The notes under the pieces are model-generated. The model did not search any database and was not told where the DNA came from. It saw only the letters and a program-made list of their open reading frames with translations. A stretch of 64,000 bases of DNA, from assembly GCA_016742275.1 (NCBI GenBank), contig JACVCD010000001.1, positions 186,001-250,000 of the forward strand, read 5' to 3'. This DNA comes from Gemmatimonadaceae bacterium (GTDB taxonomy: Bacteria; Gemmatimonadota; Gemmatimonadetes; Gemmatimonadales; Gemmatimonadaceae). Shown here in pieces: positions 9,120 to 63,411 of this stretch; positions within the stretch are counted from its first letter, which is position 1, and each line of letters begins with the position of its first letter. Position numbers and translations under genes: made by a program.

Positions 9120-9962
9120 TCACTTGAGCGAAGCCGGCTGCGTACGCCGCCATACGTTGTAACGCGCTCGCAGTGTCTTGACCGGATTGAGATTCTCTCC
9201 GGGTTTGATGGCGTTGGGGCCGCTCTGGTTGGGCTGCGCCACCGTCAGATACAGCGCGTACTTGCCATCGCTGTGCGACGTGCCCACGGCATCCGTTGGA
9301 TTCGACATGAGAATGTACGCGATGTACGAGGTGCGTCCTTCGCACGGATTGACCGGCTTGCTGTTGTCAGCCGGCAGCGGCGGACACACACACCGACTGT
9401 CTCCGCCGTATTGATCGGCCGTTTCGAGTGCCGCCATGACACGATCGGTGAGCGAACCCTGGGTCTGCACAAACGCACGCACCGCATTCGGAATTACATC
9501 GCCCGTGCGCAGGATGTTGCCCTGAATGGAATAGTAGATCTCCGTACCGGGGACCTGCCCCTGCATGTCCTGCGAGACATAGCCGTTGGACAAACCAGAG
9601 TGCCCCGCACGGCGCCCGGTGAGATCGAGAATGCCGAACTGCCGCGTCTGAAACGCCGGATCTGCACTCAGCATCTCGATGATGCGCTGCGGATCGGTGC
9701 CCTTCTGCAATTCGCGGTACACCAGCATCTGATTGGCATGAGTACCATCGACACCGGCTTGGCATGCGGCAACGCCCTTGCCCGGCACGACCACGGCTTG
9801 AATGCCGCTCAAGAACGCATCATCACGATCGACACAGGTGGCCGACGCGATCACCACGCGGCCGGTAGCCTTGTCGACGGCAATCACAGACCAGGTGGCG
9901 TATGCGGCCCTCGGGAGGAGGAGGATAAGGGCCAGTGCTAGGAGGGGGGATCTTAGGCGCAT
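9120..9962 (-). CDS. DUF1028 family exported protein
   Basis: A 280-residue protein beginning with a clear Sec signal peptide (MRLRSPLLALALILLLPRAA) followed directly by the DUF1028 start TWSVIAVDKATGRVVIASATC. Other family signatures are GKGVAACQAG, GHSGLSNGYVSQ and NILRTGDVI. DUF1028 proteins have an Ntn-hydrolase-like fold but no established activity. It lies 11 bases upstream of the PEBP-like gene on the same strand. A family-A palindromic repeat begins about 60 bases beyond its start codon, in its promoter region. Confidence 0.88.
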   Translation of the reverse strand: MRLRSPLLALALILLLPRAAYATWSVIAVDKATGRVVIASATCVDRDDAFLSGIQAVVVPGKGVAACQAGVDGTHANQMLVYRELQKGTDPQRIIEMLSADPAFQTRQFGILDLTGRRAGHSGLSNGYVSQDMQGQVPGTEIYYSIQGNILRTGDVIPNAVRAFVQTQGSLTDRVMAALETADQYGGDSRCVCPPLPADNSKPVNPCEGRTSYIAYILMSNPTDAVGTSHSDGKYALYLTVAQPNQSGPNAIKPGENLNPVKTLRARYNVWRRTQPASLK

Positions 9963-10020
9963 TGCTCGGTGGGATTGGGGGCATTGTGTTTATGCACTCC
10001 GGATCTCCTTGAGGCAACTG

Positions 10021-10158
10021 TGAGGATGGGAGGAACAGATGGCGTGAGGATGGGAGGATCTGAGGATATGAGGGCGGGCCCATGGGGGCACCGTTGGTGC
10101 CTCCATGGGCCCGCTCATGTCGCAGACCGCCATGCTCGCGTCATCATGGCACTGCGGT
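10021..10158. repeat. Palindromic repeat, copy A (intact left arm, degenerate right arm)
   Basis: The left arm runs from 10021: GAACAGATGGCGTGAGGAT, then GGAGGATCTGAGGATATGAG, then GCGGGCC. The central stem (about 10074-10113) pairs GCGGGCCCATGG...CACC with GGTG...CCATGGGCCCGC around a 3-base loop. The right arm, which in other copies reads back through CTCATATCCTCAGATCC, is present only in eroded form (CGCTCATGTCGCAGA...). The eroded arm faces the GxxExxY gene. It is one of four copies in the window (others at 10581, 15031 and 53769). Confidence 0.85.
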
Positions 10159-10194
10159 GACGTGGGGGTGACACGGCTCCACAGGTTGATCGGT

Positions 10195-10614
10195 ATGGAA
10201 ATCGACACGTTGACGGATCTGGTCATTGGTGAGGCTATCCGGGTACACCGTTCGCTGGGGCCGGGGCTTCTGGAGTCGAGCTACCGGCAGATTATGGCGG
10301 AGGTGCTGGTGCGTCGGGGCTGTGAGGTGCAGACCGAACTCGCGCTGGACTTGGCATTCGAGGGGATCATCATTCCGCGAGCCTACCGAGTGGATTTGCT
10401 GATCGACGGCGTGCTCGTCGTCGAAGTCAAACAGACCGAACGCATTGCGCCCGTGCATCGGCAGCAACTGCTGACATACTTGCGCTTGCTCGATCTCCCA
10501 CGCGGCCTGCTTCTCAACTTTGGGCTGGGCACCATGAAAGACGGCATCGCGCGTGTTTCCAATCCTCGAGTCCAAGACATGAAGGATTTGAGGGTCGATC
10601 GCGCGAGAGTTTGA
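10195..10614 (+). CDS. GxxExxY protein (PD-(D/E)XK nuclease-like)
   Basis: A 139-residue protein with the family's defining motif GLLESSY (G-x2-E-x2-Y) within GEAIRVHRSLGPGLLESSYRQ. A PD-(D/E)XK-like core follows: YRVDLLIDGVLVVEVKQTE gives the D...E-x-K pattern. I choose the ATG at 10195 (MEIDTLTDLVIGEA) because the family starts there; the frame opens further upstream within repeat copy A. The last dozen codons (from about 10581, DLRVDRARV) are encoded by the eroded left arm of repeat copy B, so its natural C-terminus seems altered or shared with the repeat. Function of the family is not established; nuclease activity is inferred from the fold. Confidence 0.85.
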   Translation: MEIDTLTDLVIGEAIRVHRSLGPGLLESSYRQIMAEVLVRRGCEVQTELALDLAFEGIIIPRAYRVDLLIDGVLVVEVKQTERIAPVHRQQLLTYLRLLDLPRGLLLNFGLGTMKDGIARVSNPRVQDMKDLRVDRARV

Positions 10615-10730
10615 GGTTTGAGGACATGAGCGCGCGGGCCGGCGAGACACCAGCTGTATCGGTGTCTCGCCGGCCCGCTCTCATATCCTCAGATCCTCCA
10701 ATCCTCACGCCATCTGTTCCTCAAAGCCTC
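10581..10730. repeat. Palindromic repeat, copy B (eroded left arm, intact right arm)
   Basis: The central stem pairs GCGGGCCGGCGAGACACC with GGTGTCTCGCCGGCCCGC around AGCTGTATC. The intact right arm reads CTCATATCCTCAGATCC, TCCAATCCTCACGCC, ATCTGTTCCTC to about 10730. The left arm (GAAGGATTTGAGGGTCGATC onward) is recognisable but eroded and encodes the C-terminal codons and stop of the GxxExxY gene. The stem core differs from that of copies A, C and D, yet pairing is complete. Confidence 0.85.
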
Positions 10731-10745
10731 CACCACTCTCGGATC

Positions 10746-12113
10746 CTAGAAGGCCGTCACCGCTTCAATCATGAACCCCCGGAATTTTCCTCCACTCCGG
10801 ATGTCCGTCCGAATGAAGCCGTTGTACTTCTGCTCCATGAGTTCCGCCTTGAGCAGCAGACTCTGTGTGATGAACCATCCACCGCCCACATTGCCGCGAG
10901 TCACGGTCACATCGCTGTTTCCACCACCCACGTCGCCAGTCACGCGATTCCAGCGTGCGCCAACGAAGAGTTTCTCGTTCGGCAGGAAGCGATACACACC
11001 CTCCGCCATGAGCTGATCGACTTCACGCAGCGCCGTTTCACTCGCACCGCGCCCCTTCGCCTGTTCGTACATGCCGAAGAACTCGGCGCCCTTCACCTTG
11101 ATGAACGGGTTCAACATGTACGCGCTGAGCTTGTCGCTGAATCCCGGGTTGATGCGGCCCGATGTGAACTGCGCTGACTCGGTCGCCTTGTCGTTTTCGA
11201 GCACGTAGTAGTAGCGCGATCCTGCGCGGTCGCCGCTGTAGAGCGTATTGCTGATGGCACTGCCTTGATTGCGCCACGAGCCGGAAAAGCGCACCCGTAC
11301 ATCATCCGTGAGCTGACGATCAAAACCGAGCTTCGCCATAACTGCCGGCGAACGGTCTGCCGGACGCGTGATGTTGCCGCGGATCTCACCATTGGTCAGC
11401 GCGACCACGCCAAACAGCCCCTGATGCTGCAGCACTGCCTCGGCGCCGATCTCGGTGGTGAATGCATCCATGATTGCGTTGCCAACGAACGGATTGAACA
11501 GCGCCTGCCCGTTGTCTGACCGCTTGAAGTGAAAGTCGCCGTAGTTGACTTCGAAGTGACCGATCTTGAGCGTCGTGTACTTCATCAGCGTGTTGAAAAG
11601 CGGCAGATCGATGGGTGATTCATCCATCTGTATGAAGCCGTCCTTCACCCACGTCTCGTTGTGGTGACGCGCCGACAGGTAACTCGTGAGCTGTACGCGA
11701 ATGCCCTTGGCCAGCTGCGCATTCATGTACAGGTTCGCGGTGGCGTTGTTGAAGCCGTTTGCAATTGGCATCAACTTGTTGCGGTTCGGATTCGCCGCAG
11801 CACCCGCATTGCCAGGCGAAGGTTGTACAGCCGGTACCGCGACGACGTCCGCCGAGTTCTCGTGCGACAGTCCCTGGAACTGTTGGGTGAAGGCCGCACC
11901 CCACGCGAGCTTGAATCCGTTGTACGGCGCGCCCGCGTCCTTCTTCGTTTCGAACACGTTGATACCGCGCTGATCCATCGGGCGTACGTACTGGATTTCA
12001 CGCGGCGGTTGTGTTTCGGACTTATCGGCCTGCTGTGCGCCGAGTGTCACGATCAGAGGTGCAATCGTCGCGCCCAGCGACGTCGCGAGCACCAGCCTAA
12101 GTGTGTTGTTCAT
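10746..12113 (-). CDS. Outer membrane beta-barrel protein, porin-like
   Basis: A 455-residue exported protein with signal peptide (MNNTLRLVLATSLGATIAPL, cleavage near LGA-Q). The mature part is rich in alternating amphipathic strands and ends in phenylalanine (IEAVTAF), as expected of an outer membrane barrel. Segments such as LKIGHFEVNYGDFHFKRSDNG and SGSWRNQGSAI resemble phosphate-selective porin O/P-type barrels, but specificity is not readable. The ATG at 12113 is chosen over the longer frame because the signal peptide begins there. It lies 46 bases downstream of the YceI gene on the same strand and they may form one transcript. Confidence 0.75.
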   Translation of the reverse strand: MNNTLRLVLATSLGATIAPLIVTLGAQQADKSETQPPREIQYVRPMDQRGINVFETKKDAGAPYNGFKLAWGAAFTQQFQGLSHENSADVVAVPAVQPSPGNAGAAANPNRNKLMPIANGFNNATANLYMNAQLAKGIRVQLTSYLSARHHNETWVKDGFIQMDESPIDLPLFNTLMKYTTLKIGHFEVNYGDFHFKRSDNGQALFNPFVGNAIMDAFTTEIGAEAVLQHQGLFGVVALTNGEIRGNITRPADRSPAVMAKLGFDRQLTDDVRVRFSGSWRNQGSAISNTLYSGDRAGSRYYYVLENDKATESAQFTSGRINPGFSDKLSAYMLNPFIKVKGAEFFGMYEQAKGRGASETALREVDQLMAEGVYRFLPNEKLFVGARWNRVTGDVGGGNSDVTVTRGNVGGGWFITQSLLLKAELMEQKYNGFIRTDIRSGGKFRGFMIEAVTAF

Positions 12114-12159
12114 ATGACGAATTCCGAAGAAGTGGAAGCTTGGTGGACGTTTCGTTGCC

Positions 12160-12780
12160 TCAGTTGAGCGCGACCGCACTGCCCTTCTGCAGCAGCAGAT
12201 CGAAGTGCACGGTGACCACGGGTCCGACTTTCATCGCACCGAGCATCAGCGTGGGCGGCTTGATGCCCCAGTCGGTCATCTTCACCGGCACCTTACCCGT
12301 AACACGCATCGCGCCGTCAGCTGCTGGCGCGAATTGCGCAGGAATGCTGATGGGCAGTGTCTGCCCAGCCAGTTGCAACGTGCCCTGCAGCGTACCGGTC
12401 ACCGATTCGCCTCGCGCGAGGTCGTAGCTATCGAGCGAGAAGTGGATGGTGGCGAATTCCTTGGCCTTGAGCGCCTTCAGCATGTGCTCGTTCATCGTGC
12501 CGTTCTTGCACTCGAGCTTTTGTACGGGGAAGTCGACCTGCACCTGACCAGCGACTTTCTTGCCATCCAGCACCGATGCGATCACGCCCTCGTCAGCGGC
12601 GGACAGCTTGGCGTCGATGCGATCTGCGGAGCAGTTCCACGAGCGTACCGTGGACGTGCCTTCAAACCAGAGTCGACTACCTTCACGCAGCGACAGGGTG
12701 CCCGGTATCGTGGCCGGGGTTGCCGCGATCAGCGTGATGACCGCGGTCAGCAATGCAAGATGCGAATGAGGGGCGCGCAT
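12160..12780 (-). CDS. YceI family exported protein
   Basis: A 206-residue protein with a signal peptide (start MRAPHSHLALLTAVITL) and a YceI-like lipocalin-type beta-barrel: LWFEGTSTVRSWNCSADRIDA at the front, FPVQKLECKNGTMNEHMLKALKAKEFATIHF in the middle, TGTLQGTLQLAGQTLPISIP and KVPVKMTDWGIKPP near the end. The family binds polyisoprenoids or similar lipids in the periplasm; the ligand here is unknown. It lies directly upstream of the porin-like gene. Confidence 0.88.
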   Translation of the reverse strand: MRAPHSHLALLTAVITLIAATPATIPGTLSLREGSRLWFEGTSTVRSWNCSADRIDAKLSAADEGVIASVLDGKKVAGQVQVDFPVQKLECKNGTMNEHMLKALKAKEFATIHFSLDSYDLARGESVTGTLQGTLQLAGQTLPISIPAQFAPAADGAMRVTGKVPVKMTDWGIKPPTLMLGAMKVGPVVTVHFDLLLQKGSAVALN

Positions 12781-12931
12781 CGTCGGAGTCTCCAGCAGAC
12801 GGAAGTCCAATCGATCATCGTGATCGAAAGCCTTTCAGGCCAAGCGCCTGTGGAGATGAGATTCGCCTCGGGACCGCGTACAGAAGGTCGGGTGTCTCTT
12901 GAACTTTCGTGCGGGTTGTGCGGCGCGCGTG

Positions 12932-13738
12932 TCAGGTGGAATCCGACATCGCGGTGCAGGTCCATGGTGCGGTGTGCCGTTGCCACATAAGTGTGAGCGT
13001 CGTAGTGCCCACGATTGGCATCTTGCTCACGATGCGTACCGGCAACCGACAATGCGACGTGTCGATATTGAGCCGGATCAAACCAATGCCCTTGAAGTGC
13101 TTGGGATCGCGCACGTGCATGACAACCACGCGTGTGTGAAACACGCCGGCATCTGTTTCCAGCGTTTCTTCCGCTCCCACGCTCACCATCGTGGGATTGC
13201 GTCGTTCGTCGAAATGACGATTGAATTGAAAGACACTATCGCGATCGAGTGGTAACGTGCGCACGAAGTACAGGAACGACAATTCGTCGAGCGGTGTCGT
13301 CGACCCAAGTGGCGACGAGGCGGTGTCGCCGACGGCACGCCATGTGCCGGTTCGAGTATCGATATCCACCCGTTCATCGGCACTTGAGAGCGGATGCCGT
13401 TCACGCTTTTCGAAGCGGGACATGGCCATGCGCTCCGGATCGAACCACGAGGTCGACTTGTCGGTGGCCTTGATGAAGCCGCGCTTGGCCTGCATCTCGC
13501 TCACGAATCGCCATGGCGCTCCAAGTGGACCACCGTCGTGCGGAGCGGTAGCCTCGATACGCATTTCGCCCTGACCAATGTTGCCGCCACGTGCGACGTT
13601 CACGCGGTAGCGCAGCACCTCACCGGGGCCAAAAGGCAGCGCCGACTGCGCGTCTACGGATTGCGCGTGCATCAACAGCACGGTCCCAAGGAGAACCGTG
13701 GTACGCTGCAGTATCGAACCTCTGGATCCGGCGACCAT
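12932..13738 (-). CDS. DUF3108-like exported protein
   Basis: A 268-residue protein with a hydrophobic N-terminus (MVAGSRGSILQRTTVLLGTV) that looks like a signal peptide ending near VDA-Q. The mature part begins FGPGEVLRYRVNVARGGNIGQGEMRIE, the typical opening of DUF3108 proteins, and ends with RLPVRIVSKMPIVGTTTLTL. Role unknown in the family; usually periplasmic. ATG 13738 is preferred to the longer frame. It runs on the minus strand in the same direction as the following YceI gene with a 151-base gap. Confidence 0.75.
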   Translation of the reverse strand: MVAGSRGSILQRTTVLLGTVLLMHAQSVDAQSALPFGPGEVLRYRVNVARGGNIGQGEMRIEATAPHDGGPLGAPWRFVSEMQAKRGFIKATDKSTSWFDPERMAMSRFEKRERHPLSSADERVDIDTRTGTWRAVGDTASSPLGSTTPLDELSFLYFVRTLPLDRDSVFQFNRHFDERRNPTMVSVGAEETLETDAGVFHTRVVVMHVRDPKHFKGIGLIRLNIDTSHCRLPVRIVSKMPIVGTTTLTLMWQRHTAPWTCTAMSDST

Positions 13739-13835
13739 GGCCTGCAGTGTCGCCTCACGACCGTCCACTCATCAGCGGGGGAACGCCGTGTCGGTGTCGG
13801 AATTCCCCCGACGACGGCGGATTGCGCCTGCCGCA

Positions 13836-13873
13836 AAGAAAAATGCCCGATCCCTCGGCGAGGGATCGGGCAT
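13836..13873 (-). terminator. Rho-independent terminator after the 60-residue membrane protein gene
   Basis: A perfect 15-bp inverted repeat (ATGCCCGATCCCTCG and its complement, 13843-13873) is followed on the minus strand by TTTTTCTTT. It lies 19 bases after the stop of the gene at 13892. Confidence 0.9.
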
Positions 13874-13891
13874 CAGAACAGCGCAGGCGAA

Positions 13892-14074
13892 TTATGCGCG
13901 CGCCGGACCCATCACGTTGCGGGCAAACAGTGCGATGACGATGGCGATGATCAGGATCTGTCCGATCGGCCCGGACGCCAAGATGCCCTGGAAGATCGCC
14001 GAGATCAGCAACAAGGGCAGCTTGATGATCGGGAGCAGGAAATCCGCGTTTGCGGGAGCGCTGAAAAACGGCAT
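13892..14074 (-). CDS. Small hydrophobic membrane protein (60 aa)
   Basis: A 60-residue protein whose middle is one or two membrane segments (LLPIIKLPLLLISAIFQGIL, then IGQILIIAIVIALFARNV). No family is recognised. It is supported as a gene by its position 38 bases after the oxidoreductase stop, a GAGG upstream, and a strong dedicated terminator right after it. Function unknown. Confidence 0.6.
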   Translation of the reverse strand: MPFFSAPANADFLLPIIKLPLLLISAIFQGILASGPIGQILIIAIVIALFARNVMGPARA

Positions 14075-14112
14075 CGGTTCGCTTGGCCTCAGATTTGGGT
14101 CAGAATAGAAAG

Positions 14113-15000
14113 TTAAGCGGTCGGCCGAGCCGAGGGGAAGGTTTCGGCCGACTCTCGCACGGCATCCTTGGCAATGACGCCGAAGTCCCGCTCACCGTGA
14201 CCTTCGGCGATCACGGCGTCCATGCGGGCGGCAATACCGGGCAGTGCGGCGAGAGGCCGGTCCCCCGCTGTTTCCAGCATGAGGCGGATGTCCTTTCGTG
14301 CCATAACCAGTTCGAAGCTGGGGTCGAATCGCGCCTGCGACATGTTGCGCCCACGATTCTGAAGCATCGAACCCGGATTGAAAAACTCGAGCAGCTTGAG
14401 GGCATCGGGCGCCGACACGCCGGTGCCGTTGGCCAACGTGAAAACATCGGACACCAACGCCCCGAGCCCAATGATGAACGCGTTGCCCATGAGCTTGTAG
14501 GCCGCCGCCAGATCCGCGCGTTCGCCCCAATACTCCACGCGCTGGGCCTGCTGTTCCAGCGCCGGCTTCACCTGCTCGAACAAGGCCTGCGGGCCCGACA
14601 CCATGATAATGCCCTGCGCCTGACGCGCCGCCGCCGGACCGATGAACACCGGACAATGCAGATATGGTACACCCTCTGCCAGCAGACGAGTGGCCCGTTC
14701 CGCCGTGAGCGCCGGCTGCGTCGTGGTGTGATCAACGATCACCGCACCCGGTTCGAGGCCCGGCCGCAGCGAGGCCACGATTTCCTCGACGACGGCGTCA
14801 TCCTTGAGCACCAGATGGATGCGAGCCGCGCCCTTCACCGCATCGGCCGGCGTATCGGCCACCTTCGCACCGAACGGGATCAGAGCCTCAGCTTTGGCTC
14901 TCGTGCGGTTCCATACCGTGACGGTGTCGCCGCGACCGAGCGCGGCTTCAACAAAGGCGCTCCCGAGGAGGCCTGTACCCAAATACGCGATTTGTGTCAT
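14113..15000 (-). CDS. NAD(P)-dependent beta-hydroxyacid dehydrogenase family oxidoreductase
   Basis: A 295-residue enzyme of the 6-phosphogluconate/3-hydroxyisobutyrate dehydrogenase superfamily. The N-terminal Rossmann motif is IAYLGTGLLGSAF, the substrate-binding segment HCPVFIGPAAARQAQGIIMVSG matches the family's DAPVSGG region, and the catalytic lysine is in AAAYKLMGNAFIIG. The missing canonical DAPVSGG form suggests an imine-reductase or glyoxylate-reductase-like branch; substrate unknown. The frame is open to 15153, but the extra 51 codons are palindromic repeat copy C, so ATG 15000 (MTQIAYLG) is the real start. The repeat lies between this gene and the RND gene and occupies its promoter region. 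Confidence 0.85.
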   Translation of the reverse strand: MTQIAYLGTGLLGSAFVEAALGRGDTVTVWNRTRAKAEALIPFGAKVADTPADAVKGAARIHLVLKDDAVVEEIVASLRPGLEPGAVIVDHTTTQPALTAERATRLLAEGVPYLHCPVFIGPAAARQAQGIIMVSGPQALFEQVKPALEQQAQRVEYWGERADLAAAYKLMGNAFIIGLGALVSDVFTLANGTGVSAPDALKLLEFFNPGSMLQNRGRNMSQARFDPSFELVMARKDIRLMLETAGDRPLAALPGIAARMDAVIAEGHGERDFGVIAKDAVRESAETFPSARPTA

Positions 15001-15030
15001 GCCACGAAATCTATCGGATTGGAGGGGATG

Positions 15031-15182
15031 GAGGATTTGAGCAACAGATGGCGCGAGGATCAGAGGATTTGAGGACAGGAGGTGCGGGCCCCGAGGGCAC
15101 CCGGTCGCGCAGGGTGCCCTCGGGGCCCGCTCTCTTATCCTCAGATCCTCCAATCCTCATGCCATCTGTTGCTCAGATCCTC
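15031..15182. repeat. Palindromic repeat, copy C (both arms intact)
   Basis: The best-preserved copy. Left arm from 15031 (GAGGATTTGAGCAACAGATG, then GCGCGAGGATCAGAGGATTT) and right arm to 15182 are inverted repeats of about 65-70 bases with only scattered mismatches. The centre pairs GCGGGCCCCGAGGGCACCC with GGGTGCCCTCGGGGCCCGC around a loop of about 9 bases. The element touches the stop codon of the RND subunit gene (15182-15184). Confidence 0.9.
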
Positions 15183-18100
15183 TAGCCCCCTCTCATCCGG
15201 CGAGCCATGAGAGCCGGCATCACAAACAAAACCCCGAGGGTAGCGGCCACCGTCCCACCCGCCGTGGCGAGTGCGATGGCACCGAACAGATTGTCCGTTC
15301 CCGTTCCCCACGAGAGTGGGATGAGGGAAGCCAATGCGGCGAAGGTCACGATCATGATCATGCCGACGCGATCGAGCAGGGCGCGCACGACCTGACCGGC
15401 ATGCACGCGGCCATTGCTGCGTCGATGTGGAAGCAGAGCGTCTACCAGCAGAATCGTCTGATTGACCGCGAGGCCGACGACCAGGATGACACCGACGGCG
15501 GCTTCGCGGGTGAATGGCGCCTTGGCAATCCAGAATGCCGCCGCAACACCGGCGAGTGCCAATGGCAGCGATATGAACACCATCACCGCGGCCCACACAC
15601 TGTCGAATACCAGCGCAACCGACAGAAGCACGAGTGTTACGCCAATCGCGAACACCAGCCACAAACCTTTGGCGCTTTCGTCGTTTCCGAAGGGCATGCC
15701 ACTGCTGATGTCTTCGATGCGATAGCCGGCCGGCGCCGAGACCGACTTCATGAATGCATCGTGTGTGCGCTTTGCCAGTCGGGCTGGGCCACGAAAGTCA
15801 TAGACCAATTGCCGCACGTATTGTTGGTCTTCGCGAACGACACTGCCGAGTGCTTCGCGTTCGGCGACCAGCGCCACATCACGAATGCGGATCGGTGCGC
15901 CTGTGGCGTTGGGGATGAGTGCATCCTGCAATTCGTCGACCGAACGCGCCGTGGCACCAACTGCTTTGACGGTAACGGGGAGTTCGTCGCCATCAATTTC
16001 GACTTGCTGCCGGCCCATCGGGCCACGCACTTCGCGGCTCACCGCCTGCACAAATTGCGCTGCATTGAGACCGTAGCGCGTGAGCGCACGACGATCGGGC
16101 TCCACCGTGACCTGTGAGCCGCGTTCGCTCGCATACCATCCACCACTGGTAATGCGGATATCGCGCACGCGGATATTGGTGGCGAGCCGCGTTGCCAGGT
16201 CTTCAGCGATACGCTGTACTCCGGCATAGTTGAAGCCCTTGAGTTGAATGCGGTACGACGCAAACGATCCGCCGCCACCTCCACTCGAAAAGGCCGGGCC
16301 TTCTCCCACCACACTGATGGATGCACCACCAACCAGCACCGCGCGCTGTGTAAGTATTTCCTGCATCTCGAGCGGTGCTGCCGTCAGTCCGCCCTCGCGC
16401 GTAAACACCACCACCATCTGCGCACTGGAGCCACCGTATGACGTGGCTCGCACCTGCTCCACTTCTGGTCTACCGACCGCAAGTGCCTCGAACTCCGTCA
16501 TGGCCTGATCGAGTGTGATCGGATCCGAACCGCGCGGAAACGAAATGTGCACACTCAATGTGGTACGTCGCTCACCCCAGAAGTTGAAATTCGAGCGCGG
16601 CACCTTCGCGACAAACCCATACACCATCACTCCCAATACCGTGACGGAGGCCAGGAGCGTCGCCCATCGCCAGCGAAGCAGCGCCATGCTTACATGTGCA
16701 AAGACGCGACGCAGTCGCCTGAACGGCCGCTTGGCAATACGCGCAGAATGAGCTGCCAGTCGTATGCGTGACACACGCCCAACGGCCGGAACCACCAGCA
16801 GCGCGGTGAATACACTCCACGCCAGCGCCAGCAAAAATGCGAGCGCGAAAGGCATGAACGCCGCTCGCGAGTTGCCCTGGAGGTAGAGAAAGGGGAACAA
16901 CACGACGGCAGTGGTGAGTGTGCCGCCAACAACAGCCGGTGCAATACGGCGCGTGGATTCAGCGCGCACTTCCGGCTCATCGGGAACTCTGGCCAATCGT
17001 TCGACGACCACGATGGCGTTCTGCACCAAAATGCCTACACCCATGCCAAGCCCGGCAAGTGTGAGCAAGTTGGCCGGAATACCAAACACGTACAGCGACA
17101 GTGCCGTCGCCGTGATGGCCACGGCGGTTGTACCCATTACCACCAGGACCGCCTGCCACTGCCGCATCAGCAACAGCAATACGGCACATACACTGGCAAA
17201 AGCCACGGCACCGCGCAGCATGAGATCACGCAAGTCGTCCGCGAGATCCTCACTCGAATCACTCGTCACGCGAAGCTGCACACCAATTGGCAATTGCGGT
17301 TCGAGCGCGGCTATCGCGCTGCGCAATGCCTTGGCGGTTTCAATGGCGTCTGCCCCTGCATGTCGCGACACATCGATTGCGACAGCAGGCCGGCCATCAA
17401 TACGAAAAAATCGTCCGCGTGCATCCTCATCCGCGCGAATGGTCGTCAATTCCGACAGACGAAACTGGCGTCCTCCTGGACCAATCACCGGCAGATCACC
17501 CAGCGCCTCGAGACTTTTCGGCTGATCCCGTAGCACCACATTGCGGACCAGCCCTGATCCTCGTGGTTCGAGCACACCGAGCGACTGCACAATGCGTGCA
17601 TTGGTCAGTGCATCGCTCAACTGCTGTGGGGCAATACCCAGACGCCGCAGTCGCGTGGCATCAAAACTGACCGACACGCCCAGGTCAGTACCACCGCGGA
17701 CCTGCACACCAGAAACCCCCGCTACGGATGACAGGCGTGGCGCCACATCCCGATCGAGAATGCGCTGGAGTGTACCTGGGGTGTACGGTCCGAAAATGGT
17801 AATGGAGAGCAGCGGTGCTTCCTGCAGTCCCTCCGGCACATAGTTGGACACCGTGGGCAGATAGGCACCCGGTGGCAGGTCTCTCCGAAAGAGTTCGAGG
17901 CGCTCGAGAATGCCGAGACGGACCATCTGCAGATCCGCCTGCGGTTCGAGCTCCACCGTGAGCATGGCGCTTTCGTCACGACTCGTACTGGAGACACGCT
18001 TTACTCCACGAACACCCTGAATGGCGGACTCTATGGGCGACGTGAGATAGGTCTCCATGACTTCAGGCGACGCGCCGGCCCAGTACGCATTCACCGAAAG

Positions 18101-18226
18101 ACGTGGCAATTCTACTGTCGTACGAGTGGCCAGCGGCAAGCGAGTGAATGCGAGCCCACCGGCCAGCAACAAGGCCACACACAGCGCCCACATGACGGCC
18201 GGGCGCGAGGTGGCAAAGCGTATCAT
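15182..18226 (-). CDS. RND efflux pump inner-membrane subunit, second (TM4 acid lost)
   Basis: A 1014-residue RND transporter with the usual 12-helix, two-large-periplasmic-loop organisation: TM1 near residue 15, helices 2-6 around 330-500, TM7 near 520, helices 8-12 after about 850. It overlaps the preceding RND gene by 4 bases, so the two are translationally coupled. In TM4, where AcrB has the proton-relay pair DD (LLVDDAIVV), this protein has ILVQNAIVV, lacking both acids. By analogy with MdtBC heterotrimers it may be a partner subunit that does not carry protons itself. Substrates unknown. Repeat copy C adjoins its stop codon. Confidence 0.9.
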   Translation of the reverse strand: MIRFATSRPAVMWALCVALLLAGGLAFTRLPLATRTTVELPRLSVNAYWAGASPEVMETYLTSPIESAIQGVRGVKRVSSTSRDESAMLTVELEPQADLQMVRLGILERLELFRRDLPPGAYLPTVSNYVPEGLQEAPLLSITIFGPYTPGTLQRILDRDVAPRLSSVAGVSGVQVRGGTDLGVSVSFDATRLRRLGIAPQQLSDALTNARIVQSLGVLEPRGSGLVRNVVLRDQPKSLEALGDLPVIGPGGRQFRLSELTTIRADEDARGRFFRIDGRPAVAIDVSRHAGADAIETAKALRSAIAALEPQLPIGVQLRVTSDSSEDLADDLRDLMLRGAVAFASVCAVLLLLMRQWQAVLVVMGTTAVAITATALSLYVFGIPANLLTLAGLGMGVGILVQNAIVVVERLARVPDEPEVRAESTRRIAPAVVGGTLTTAVVLFPFLYLQGNSRAAFMPFALAFLLALAWSVFTALLVVPAVGRVSRIRLAAHSARIAKRPFRRLRRVFAHVSMALLRWRWATLLASVTVLGVMVYGFVAKVPRSNFNFWGERRTTLSVHISFPRGSDPITLDQAMTEFEALAVGRPEVEQVRATSYGGSSAQMVVVFTREGGLTAAPLEMQEILTQRAVLVGGASISVVGEGPAFSSGGGGGSFASYRIQLKGFNYAGVQRIAEDLATRLATNIRVRDIRITSGGWYASERGSQVTVEPDRRALTRYGLNAAQFVQAVSREVRGPMGRQQVEIDGDELPVTVKAVGATARSVDELQDALIPNATGAPIRIRDVALVAEREALGSVVREDQQYVRQLVYDFRGPARLAKRTHDAFMKSVSAPAGYRIEDISSGMPFGNDESAKGLWLVFAIGVTLVLLSVALVFDSVWAAVMVFISLPLALAGVAAAFWIAKAPFTREAAVGVILVVGLAVNQTILLVDALLPHRRSNGRVHAGQVVRALLDRVGMIMIVTFAALASLIPLSWGTGTDNLFGAIALATAGGTVAATLGVLFVMPALMARRMRGG

Positions 18227-53768: not shown

Positions 53769-53910
53769 CGAACAGATGGCGCGAGGATCAGAGGATTTGA
53801 GGATATGAGTGCGGGCCCCGAGGGCACCCGATCGTACAGGGTGTCCTCGGGGCCCGCTCTCTTATCCTCAGATCCTCCCATCCTCACGCCATCTTTTCCC
53901 TCACATCCTC
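53769..53910. repeat. Palindromic repeat, copy D (both arms present)
   Basis: Left arm GAACAGATGGCGCGAGGATC, AGAGGATTTGAGGATATGAG; centre GCGGGCCCCGAGGGCACCC paired with GGGTGTCCTCGGGGCCCGC; right arm CTCTTATCCTCAGATCC onward. It fills the space between convergent tyrS (stop 53760) and the aminotransferase gene, whose TGA (53909-53911) overlaps the repeat end. Stem sequence is almost the same as copy C, with one G-T pair. Confidence 0.9.
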
Positions 53911-62135: not shown

Positions 62136-62707
62136 CCCGCGCGGTTGGCCGGCCCTCGCTGGTGCTCGGGATCGATCCGGGCACCGCGGTGACCGGTTAT
62201 GGCGTCGTCGCGTTCGATGGACGCGCATCGACGCTGGTGGAGTGCGGTGTCATTCGCACCACGGCACGTGATCCACTGCCGACACGATTGCAGGAGATCC
62301 ATGAGGGCGTGCGCGAACTCATGGAGCGTCACCGCCCAGATACGCTCGCCATTGAAGACGTGTTCTACGCGCGCAATGTGCGTACGACAGTGGTGTTGGG
62401 TCATGCCCGCGGCGTGATTCTGCTGGCCGCGCAGCAGGCGGCGCTCACCATTCACGAATTCGCGCCGACCGAAATCAAAAAGGCTATCACGGGCCGCGGT
62501 GGCGCCACAAAGGAACAGGTACAGTTCATGGTCGCACGATTGCTGCGACTCAAACATGCGCCTGAGCCATCCGACGCCGCTGACGGAGTAGCCGCCGCGT
62601 TGTGCGTCTGTCTGCAGGCGTCCCTTCCCCGCATTGCCGCGCCGGCACTCCCGACGCTCAAGGCACTCAAGACTCCCAAGCCACTCACTCCCAGGCGACG
62701 CGCATGA
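62132..62707 (+). CDS. ruvC: Holliday junction endonuclease RuvC
   Basis: A 191-residue RNase-H-fold resolvase. Catalytic acids are in LGIDPGTAVTGYGVV (Asp), LAIEDVFYARN (Glu) and EPSDAADGVAAAL (two Asp). EIKKAITGRGGATKEQVQFMV is the DNA-contacting region. It cuts four-way junctions brought by RuvAB. GTG start overlapping yebC; ATGA overlap with ruvA. The last 20 residues are a Pro/Lys-rich tail. Confidence 0.95.
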   Translation: MTRAVGRPSLVLGIDPGTAVTGYGVVAFDGRASTLVECGVIRTTARDPLPTRLQEIHEGVRELMERHRPDTLAIEDVFYARNVRTTVVLGHARGVILLAAQQAALTIHEFAPTEIKKAITGRGGATKEQVQFMVARLLRLKHAPEPSDAADGVAAALCVCLQASLPRIAAPALPTLKALKTPKPLTPRRRA

Positions 62708-63303
62708 TTGCTCAGGTCACCGGCACCCTCGTCCATCGTGAGCTCGAACGCGTCGAGATTCTCACCGCCGGCGGCGTTGCCTACGAGTGTCTGATTCCGC
62801 TTGGTGTCTTTGAGGCGCTACCGGGGGAGAACGCGTCGATCACGCTGCATACGCACCTCATCGTGCGCGAAGACGCATGGCACCTGTACGGATTTCTGCA
62901 GCCGTATGAGCGCGCCGTTTTTCAGAAGCTTCTCGTCGCCAAGGGCGTGGGTCCCGCGCTCGCACTCGGCATTCTTTCTGCGCTCACGCCAGATCGTGTC
63001 GTGCGCGCGTTGCGCGAGAAGGATGTAACGACGCTGATGCGTGTGCCGCGCGTAGGGCGCAAGAAGGCCGAGCAGATCATTCTCGATCTCGCGGACAAGA
63101 TCGACAGTGTTGGCAGTGGCCCGGCGAATGCGACCGGTGCCGGTGCCTCACCGGTTGGCGATGACGCGGTACGCGCCCTCGTGGCATTGGGCTACAACCA
63201 AACCGAAGCGGATCGCGCAGTGCGCGCCGTGATGGATTCTGGATCGGCGCGCGAGGTCAGTACTGTGGTGCGCGCGGCGCTGGGAATGCTGACGGGGAAA
63301 TAG
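62704..63303 (+). CDS. ruvA: Holliday junction branch-migration protein RuvA
   Basis: A 199-residue protein that binds four-way junctions and loads RuvB. Domain I (IAQVTGTLVHRELERVEILTAGGVAYE) is the OB fold; domain II has helix-hairpin-helix motifs LLVAKGVGPALALGIL and LMRVPRVGRKKAEQII; domain III (VRALVALGYNQTEADRAV) contacts RuvB. ruvB itself is not in this window: a palindrome and a convergent peptidase gene follow. Confidence 0.96.
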   Translation: MIAQVTGTLVHRELERVEILTAGGVAYECLIPLGVFEALPGENASITLHTHLIVREDAWHLYGFLQPYERAVFQKLLVAKGVGPALALGILSALTPDRVVRALREKDVTTLMRVPRVGRKKAEQIILDLADKIDSVGSGPANATGAGASPVGDDAVRALVALGYNQTEADRAVRAVMDSGSAREVSTVVRAALGMLTGK

Positions 63304-63306
63304 AAA

Positions 63307-63399
63307 AACTCGAGACTCACAACTCTTACTCAAAGCTCAAAGCTGACCGGATGTTCGGTGAGCTCTGAGCTTTGAGTGAAAGTTTGTGAGTTACGAGTT
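63307..63399. repeat. 93-bp near-perfect palindrome between ruvA and the peptidase gene
   Basis: Two arms of about 43 bases (63307-63349 and 63356-63399) pair with about six mismatches around a 6-base loop; key blocks are AACTCG, ACTCACAA, ACTCAAAGCTCA and ACCG. It occupies nearly all of the 108 bases between the convergent stops (63303 and 63412). It differs in sequence from the other two palindrome families. It could act as a bidirectional terminator. Confidence 0.85.
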
Positions 63400-63411
63400 C
63401 ATTGGCTCCCG

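Follow-up and report, generated by a model that had tools for sequence, protein, structure and literature searches.

The element at positions 15031 to 15182 raises the question of how the hairpin at the center of a repeat can keep its pairing from copy to copy while its sequence changes. The copy lies in a 64,000-nucleotide stretch of a Gemmatimonadaceae genome (the window, by which we mean the whole stretch analyzed) and is one member of a family of dispersed imperfect palindromes of ~150 nt. Its outer arms (15024 to 15081 and 15132 to 15189) are 83% complementary and enclose a perfect central stem of 19 bp (for coordinates of all features, see Table 1). On one side of this copy is the stop codon of an RND transporter gene, and on the other is the start of a dehydrogenase gene.

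Table 1. Features of the window that bear on the palindromic element
Feature	Position	Strand	Remarks
Palindromic element, copy A	10022..10114	.	Left arm and hairpin intact, right arm decayed; left of the predicted nuclease gene
GxxExxY gene, 139 aa (PF13366/TIGR04256)	10195..10614	+	Predicted PD-(D/E)XK nuclease fold; from profiles and a structure model
Palindromic element, copy B	10583..10730	.	Left arm decayed; hairpin present; right arm intact
Dehydrogenase gene, neighbor	14113..15000	-	Name from sequence reading; anchor for finding the site in relatives
Palindromic element, copy C	15031..15182	.	Core AACAG..CTGTT at 15043-15170
Central covarying stem, left side	15084..15102	.	100% complementary to right side
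Central covarying stem, right side	15112..15130	.	9-nt loop separates the two sides
RND-type transporter gene, neighbor	15182..18226	-	Name from sequence reading; stop codon abuts element
Palindromic element, copy D (locus L007)	53771..53910	.	Core at 53771-53897

A dispersed palindrome with conserved arms and a variable hairpin

The sister copies in the window differ in their hairpins. The hairpin of copy A is 95% complementary over 19 positions, and that of copy B is a perfect 18-bp stem. Copy D, which is flanked by convergent genes for a tyrosyl-tRNA synthetase and an aminotransferase, has the stem type of copy C with one mismatch, and the window thus contains three stem types. In the genome to which the window belongs (G000; 4.57 Mb in 33 contigs), a two-strand search with the element yields 51 matches, which fall at about 25 places, with E values down to 1e-74. 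The outer arms of each copy consist of degenerate 8-nt units (GAGGATNN) and begin with AACAGATGGCGYGAGGAT, and the central hairpin is GC-rich, is usually 18 to 19 bp long, and opens with GCGGGC. The two arms, inverted and conserved in sequence (AACAGATGGCGYGAGGATNNGAGGATNNGAGGATNNGAG), enclose a hairpin of free sequence. The preliminary description assigned all copies a common frame, GCGGGCC...CACC, around a changing stem. This is correct within the window but too narrow for the genome, where stems of the GCGGGCG and GCGGCC types also exist and where two copies (C4:4895 and C4:103769) combine the same outer arms with wholly different central stems.

The two sides of the stem covary and the outer arms do not

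According to the preliminary description, the two sides of the stem change together and stay complementary. We compared the left side of each stem with its own right side and with the right sides of other copies, and we treated the outer arms separately. Of 49 copies from G000 itself and two genomes of the same genus (G001 and G022), 46 entered the comparison; the 3 copies that lack the GCGG[GC]C anchor were omitted. Over stem nucleotides 7 to 17, the match of a left side to its own right side is 0.923 and the cross-copy match is 0.562 (46 copies), and none of 10,000 permutations reached the own-side value. The same difference is found in G000 alone (0.918 versus 0.656; n = 20) and in G001 and G022 together (0.927 versus 0.523; n = 26), which bears out the described behavior of the stem. 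In contrast, nucleotides 11 to 38 of the arms have an own match of 0.792 and a cross-copy match of 0.806, and hence the GAGGATNN units do not covary. The first ten bases of the arms do covary, both in the pooled genomes (0.907 versus 0.799) and in G001 and G022 (0.888 versus 0.836), although not in G000 by itself. In fact, the two arms of a G000 copy are less alike than arms from different copies (0.82 versus 0.86; the permutation probability of a value as low as the own match is 5e-5), a deficit that is absent in G001 and G022.

Since the stem covaries and the arms do not, the element consists of two modules that follow different rules, with sequence conserved on the outside and pairing conserved on the inside. 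Gene conversion between arms, which had been suggested as a source of the paired changes, is rejected for the outer arms, which do not covary and in G000 are less alike within than between copies; for the stem alone, it may still apply.

Same-site comparisons reveal replacement of whole hairpins

We compared G000 with its relatives using 24 queries, of which 23 were palindrome copies and one was the GxxExxY unit described below. The flanks of 13 of the 24 match loci of G001 or G022 copies at 66 to 82% identity, which indicates that recent movement is rare. For the copies at these shared sites, identity between G000 and the relatives is 0.69 in the stem and 0.79 in the arms (14 pairs), and the values for unrelated sites are equal (0.70 and 0.79). 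Within a genome, arm identity is 0.89 (G000) or 0.86 (G001). Arms at shared sites are therefore no closer to each other than arms at unrelated sites; they are uniform within each genome and have no memory of the site.

The genomes G001 and G022 are closer to each other, and 7 same-site pairs from these two were aligned. Five of the pairs, one of them clipped by a contig end, have near-identical stems in which point changes are one-sided only. In the other two (the second copy of L174/L032, and L024/L186), the whole hairpin has been replaced, and the arms and at least one flank are alike. This replacement of an entire hairpin at a fixed site was not foreseen in the preliminary description. At the second copy of L174/L032, the G022 stem equals that of a neighboring copy 1.25 kb away, which suggests hairpin copying. 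At one shared site (L034/L026), the 9-nt loops of the two genomes are exact reverse complements of each other, with the flank and the left arm unflipped. Opening and rejoining of a hairpin or cruciform would give this result, although the G022 contig ends in the element and an assembly fault is possible.

Comparisons between sites within G000 gave two further cases. The 47-nt hairpin of copy D is identical to that of L004, and the two sites are unrelated. L002 and L013 have an identical 9-nt loop, beneath which there are three two-sided stem changes, all of them transitions, and one one-sided change. Based on these cases, we conclude that transfer of whole hairpins and true two-sided change both occur.

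No clean empty site with a target duplication was found at the three sites checked (L029, L007, and L004). The G022 contig breaks at the element of the L029 site, the L007 site is occupied in G001 and G022 by a different palindrome, and the flanks of L004 have no match outside elements. No transposition or cleavage was observed in this analysis. The different long palindrome that is the counterpart of copy D in G001 and G022 (L232 to L235) has its halves on separate contigs and was possibly split by an inserted element.

Copies A and B bracket a gene of the GxxExxY family

Copies A and B lie on either side of a GxxExxY gene, and the arms that span it (10022 to 10080 and 10672 to 10730) are 92% complementary. 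The reading frame opens at 10105, and its final codons overlap copy B. The product scores 113.6 bits against PF13366 (cutoff, 22) and 110.7 bits against TIGR04256 (cutoff, 35), and residues E27, Y30, D67, E77, K79, Q91, and Y95, which make up the motifs E, D, ExK, and QxxxY, are invariant in 20 sequences. The gene is thus a member of the GxxExxY family, above the curated cutoffs and with the active site conserved. This family is little studied and is present in many phyla.

The model of the window protein (pLDDT, 94) has a predicted PD-(D/E)XK-like fold. Its nearest structure is SSO0001 (Foldseek E value, 2e-4; Z score, 9.4; rmsd, 4.0 over 102 residues), which is a Cas4 protein. The Z score of the model against Hjc is 7.2, and structural alignments (VIA-align) with a Z score of <8, which include restriction enzymes, Hjc, and others, are read as a common fold only. 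A sequence search of solved structures gave no clear match; the best E value was 0.41, for an unrelated protein, and that for SSO0001 was 0.65. The likeness to Cas4/RecB-type and Hjc nucleases therefore lies in the predicted fold and not in sequence, and the nuclease function of the window protein is likewise a prediction.

The nearest relative of this protein, in G001, is 67% identical and is encoded beside the same palindrome family, and none of the other matches among 395 genomes of the phylum exceeds 53% identity. All 10 genomes of the genus that were searched contain GxxExxY genes. The G022 assembly, a draft of 430 contigs, contains GAGGAT palindromes, and a cognate GxxExxY gene was not found in it. 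In some genomes, an in-frame stop interrupts the GxxExxY frame (L055, L255, and L270); one of these is G022 (L055), where dispersed palindromes of the adjacent type are still present. Elsewhere in the set, close pairs of copies 1.2 to 1.5 kb apart (L029, L035, and L015) enclose genes that, judged from their translations alone, look like ordinary host genes, and we rejected the idea that neighboring copies bracket a mobile gene other than GxxExxY. In the literature searched, no paper was found that links GxxExxY to palindromes, and the passages that name GxxExxY concern no repeats.

Inverted repeats accompany GxxExxY genes in many bacteria

Among the 53 predicted genes of the window, only the GxxExxY gene is bracketed by an inverted repeat with a score of at least 20. 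For a wider comparison, we used 80 of 583 confirmed GxxExxY loci, from named genomes of many phyla among the matches listed. An inverted repeat with a score of at least 20 across the 250-nt flanks is found at 47 of 73 GxxExxY loci among the matches listed, compared with none of 63 control windows located farther away. A best-of-three statistic for the adjacent inverted repeat is at least 25 at 80 of 131 loci overall, the wide set being drawn from the matches listed. By set, these are 21 of 30 loci from the genus, 20 of 21 from the phylum, and 39 of 80 from the wide set among the matches listed; the shifted controls gave 5 of 120 and 12 of 117. Only part of the phylum matches was entered (22 loci, of which L245 was omitted since it has no motif match). 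A palindrome downstream is found at 13 of 29 genus GxxExxY genes and at 12 of 53 window genes, a difference of about twofold. Strong downstream palindromes are thus common, and they are a weaker measure than the bracketing repeat.

The repeats beside GxxExxY genes elsewhere consist of 2 to 4 degenerate units of 8 to 10 nt. A search for such a pattern found it dispersed in all 15 host genomes examined (3 to 42 matches; reversed control, 0 to 2). Within the genus, one other palindrome that adjoins a GxxExxY gene is dispersed in G000, G001, and G022 and has 0 or 1 match in five other genomes, and a second is dispersed in G001 and G022, the rest having 5, 4, and 0 matches. The similarity of arms tracks that of the proteins (Mantel r = 0.43, P = 0.0005, 97 loci; r = 0.38 for distant pairs), and shared descent may be a partial source of this correlation. 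Taken together, these results suggest that a partnership of repeat and enzyme recurs in many kinds of bacteria. At many loci, draft contigs end within palindromes or beside GxxExxY genes; it is probable that the repeats cause assembly breaks and are hence undercounted.

A REPIN-like element with a candidate cognate nuclease

The explanation that we favor, with a probability of roughly 0.6, takes the element to be a dispersed palindrome that resembles a REPIN, the arms of which are likely to be recognition sites of a cognate GxxExxY nuclease encoded between inverted copies. The nuclease would bind the arms and then cut the extruded DNA hairpin or cruciform, and repair from another copy would overwrite the hairpin or the whole element. 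Repair of this kind would change both sides of the stem at once and would keep the arms uniform within a genome. Selection for a foldable form would keep point changes paired, and rare copying to new gene ends would spread the element. We infer both the mobility of the element and the action of the nuclease. A broader proposal, to which we would give somewhat less than even odds, is that GxxExxY nucleases and palindromes with arms of tandem units form a widespread, undescribed class of repeat and enzyme that is convergent with REP/RAYT. In such a class, the arms would be recognized, the hairpin would be cut, and homing-like repair would overwrite or flip hairpins at gene-end sites, so that stems would stay paired without stepwise compensatory mutation.

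The comparison with REPINs made in the preliminary description fits the architecture. As in REPINs and RAYTs (PMC3116915, PMC2817692, and PMC3733652), inverted conserved sequences surround a variable pairing hairpin, the copies are extragenic and multiple, and an enzyme gene lies between two inverted repeats; compensatory changes around the hairpin are also reported for REPINs (PMC3116915). In contrast, the enzyme here is a predicted PD-(D/E)XK nuclease and not a Y1 HUH transposase, the arms are longer and are made of degenerate 8- to 10-nt tandem units, and the GTAG (or GTRG) head at the base of the palindrome is absent. Since both a RAYT and the GTAG head are lacking, the element is not a member of the REP/REPIN family; by analogy, it would work like REPIN/RAYT with an unrelated enzyme.

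If this explanation is true, a little-studied nuclease family found in many phyla would gain a candidate partner and a substrate that can be tested, dispersed inverted repeats of the CGCAGAG/CGCGGAG type in many bacteria would be explained, and there would be a second, independent case of a palindromic repeat population tied to a cognate enzyme. Whole-hairpin swaps can produce paired changes, and this matters wherever covariation is read as RNA function.

Location at gene ends and alternative explanations

The main alternative, which we regard as unlikely, is that the palindromes serve the host at 3' ends, as two-way terminators or stabilizers of mRNA ends under selection for RNA folding, and that the link to GxxExxY is incidental. 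The location fits. Based on gene calls from our own codon-usage script (9 of 10 proteins checked matched Pfam), the genes on either side are codirectional for 12 of the 23 G000 copies, convergent for 10, and divergent for 1, and 22 of the 23 have a predicted stop codon no more than about 35 nt from the core. The convergent excess is significant (10 of 23 versus 18% of window intergenic bases; P = 0.005), as is the divergent deficit (P = 0.02); the sole divergent copy (L011) depends on a gene to its right that has no Pfam match. In G001, the last codons and the stop codon of the transporter gene fall inside an arm of the element. As in intrinsic terminators and other 3'-end palindromes, a GC-rich hairpin is present right after stop codons, often of convergent genes, and two copies have terminator-like stems (AAAAGG/CCTTTT or GGAAAGG/CCTTTCC). 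The two-sided transitions beneath one loop in L002/L013 also favor this alternative, as does an intergenic site that holds different palindrome families in different relatives. The site of copy C itself has the same palindrome family in G001 and G022, a different palindrome in G043, apparent partial palindromes in G019 and G045, and none in G010.

However, unlike that of intrinsic terminators, the T-tract is weak, with 3.2 to 3.4 T in the 8 nucleotides 3' of the stem, and long conserved arms lie outside the hairpin. On the transcribed strand, GU is not in excess among stem mismatches (5 GU and 7 AC in 15 codirectional copies, a small sample in which no preference for wobble pairs is seen). A 3'-end role also leaves the conserved 8-nt arm units and the two-sided inverted repeats at GxxExxY genes unexplained. 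A structured-RNA family was considered and rejected, since all 24 Rfam matches with an E value of up to 1 in positions 9900 to 15400 of the window are under the gathering score. The earlier suggestion of selection on a folded DNA or RNA form is consistent with the retained pairing, but the mismatches in the codirectional copies do not point to a constraint specific to RNA. Copies at gene ends probably persist in part because a hairpin there is harmless or useful, and a nuclease partnership and a 3'-end RNA role may be true together.

It is improbable that the pairing is a by-product of replication in which template switching between the sides of the hairpin fixes mismatches without selection. 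Such correction would account for the scarcity of stem mismatches (40 of 782), and the shared loop and two-sided stem changes of L002/L013 could also come from it. However, the outer arms are inverted too and are left uncorrected, as the deficit of within-copy likeness in G000 indicates, and close relatives show one-sided point changes, with larger change taking the form of whole-hairpin replacement. Still less probable is a family of MITE-like derivatives of a transposon that has no remaining transposase, with the GxxExxY gene as a passenger. Terminal inverted repeats, dispersal, and a gene inside some copies are what this would predict, but the GxxExxY family is found within inverted repeats across many phyla, and target duplications were not found, with no clean empty site for comparison. 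Lastly, a RAYT transposase as the mover of true REP/REPIN elements, which the architecture would fit (PMC3116915), is refuted here, barring a RAYT hidden in a gap of the assembly, since PF01797 has 0 matches (the control search was positive in 5 of 14 genomes) and the arms start with AACAG and have no GTAG head.

Other palindromes near predicted genes

The window also contains a large palindrome of another unit type (CTCAAAG-like) at 63304 to 63410, with arms AACTCGAGACTCACAA and TTGTGAGTTACGAGTT, which directly follows a predicted gene at 62704 to 63303. A hairpin at 1610 to 1660 that opens with GGAACAGATGCGCGACGCGTAGCG adjoins the end of a predicted gene, and its start resembles the arm start AACAGATG. 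In G012 (L049:1161-2544), a GxxExxY gene lies between long inverted arrays of tandem units of the ACGGAGG type.
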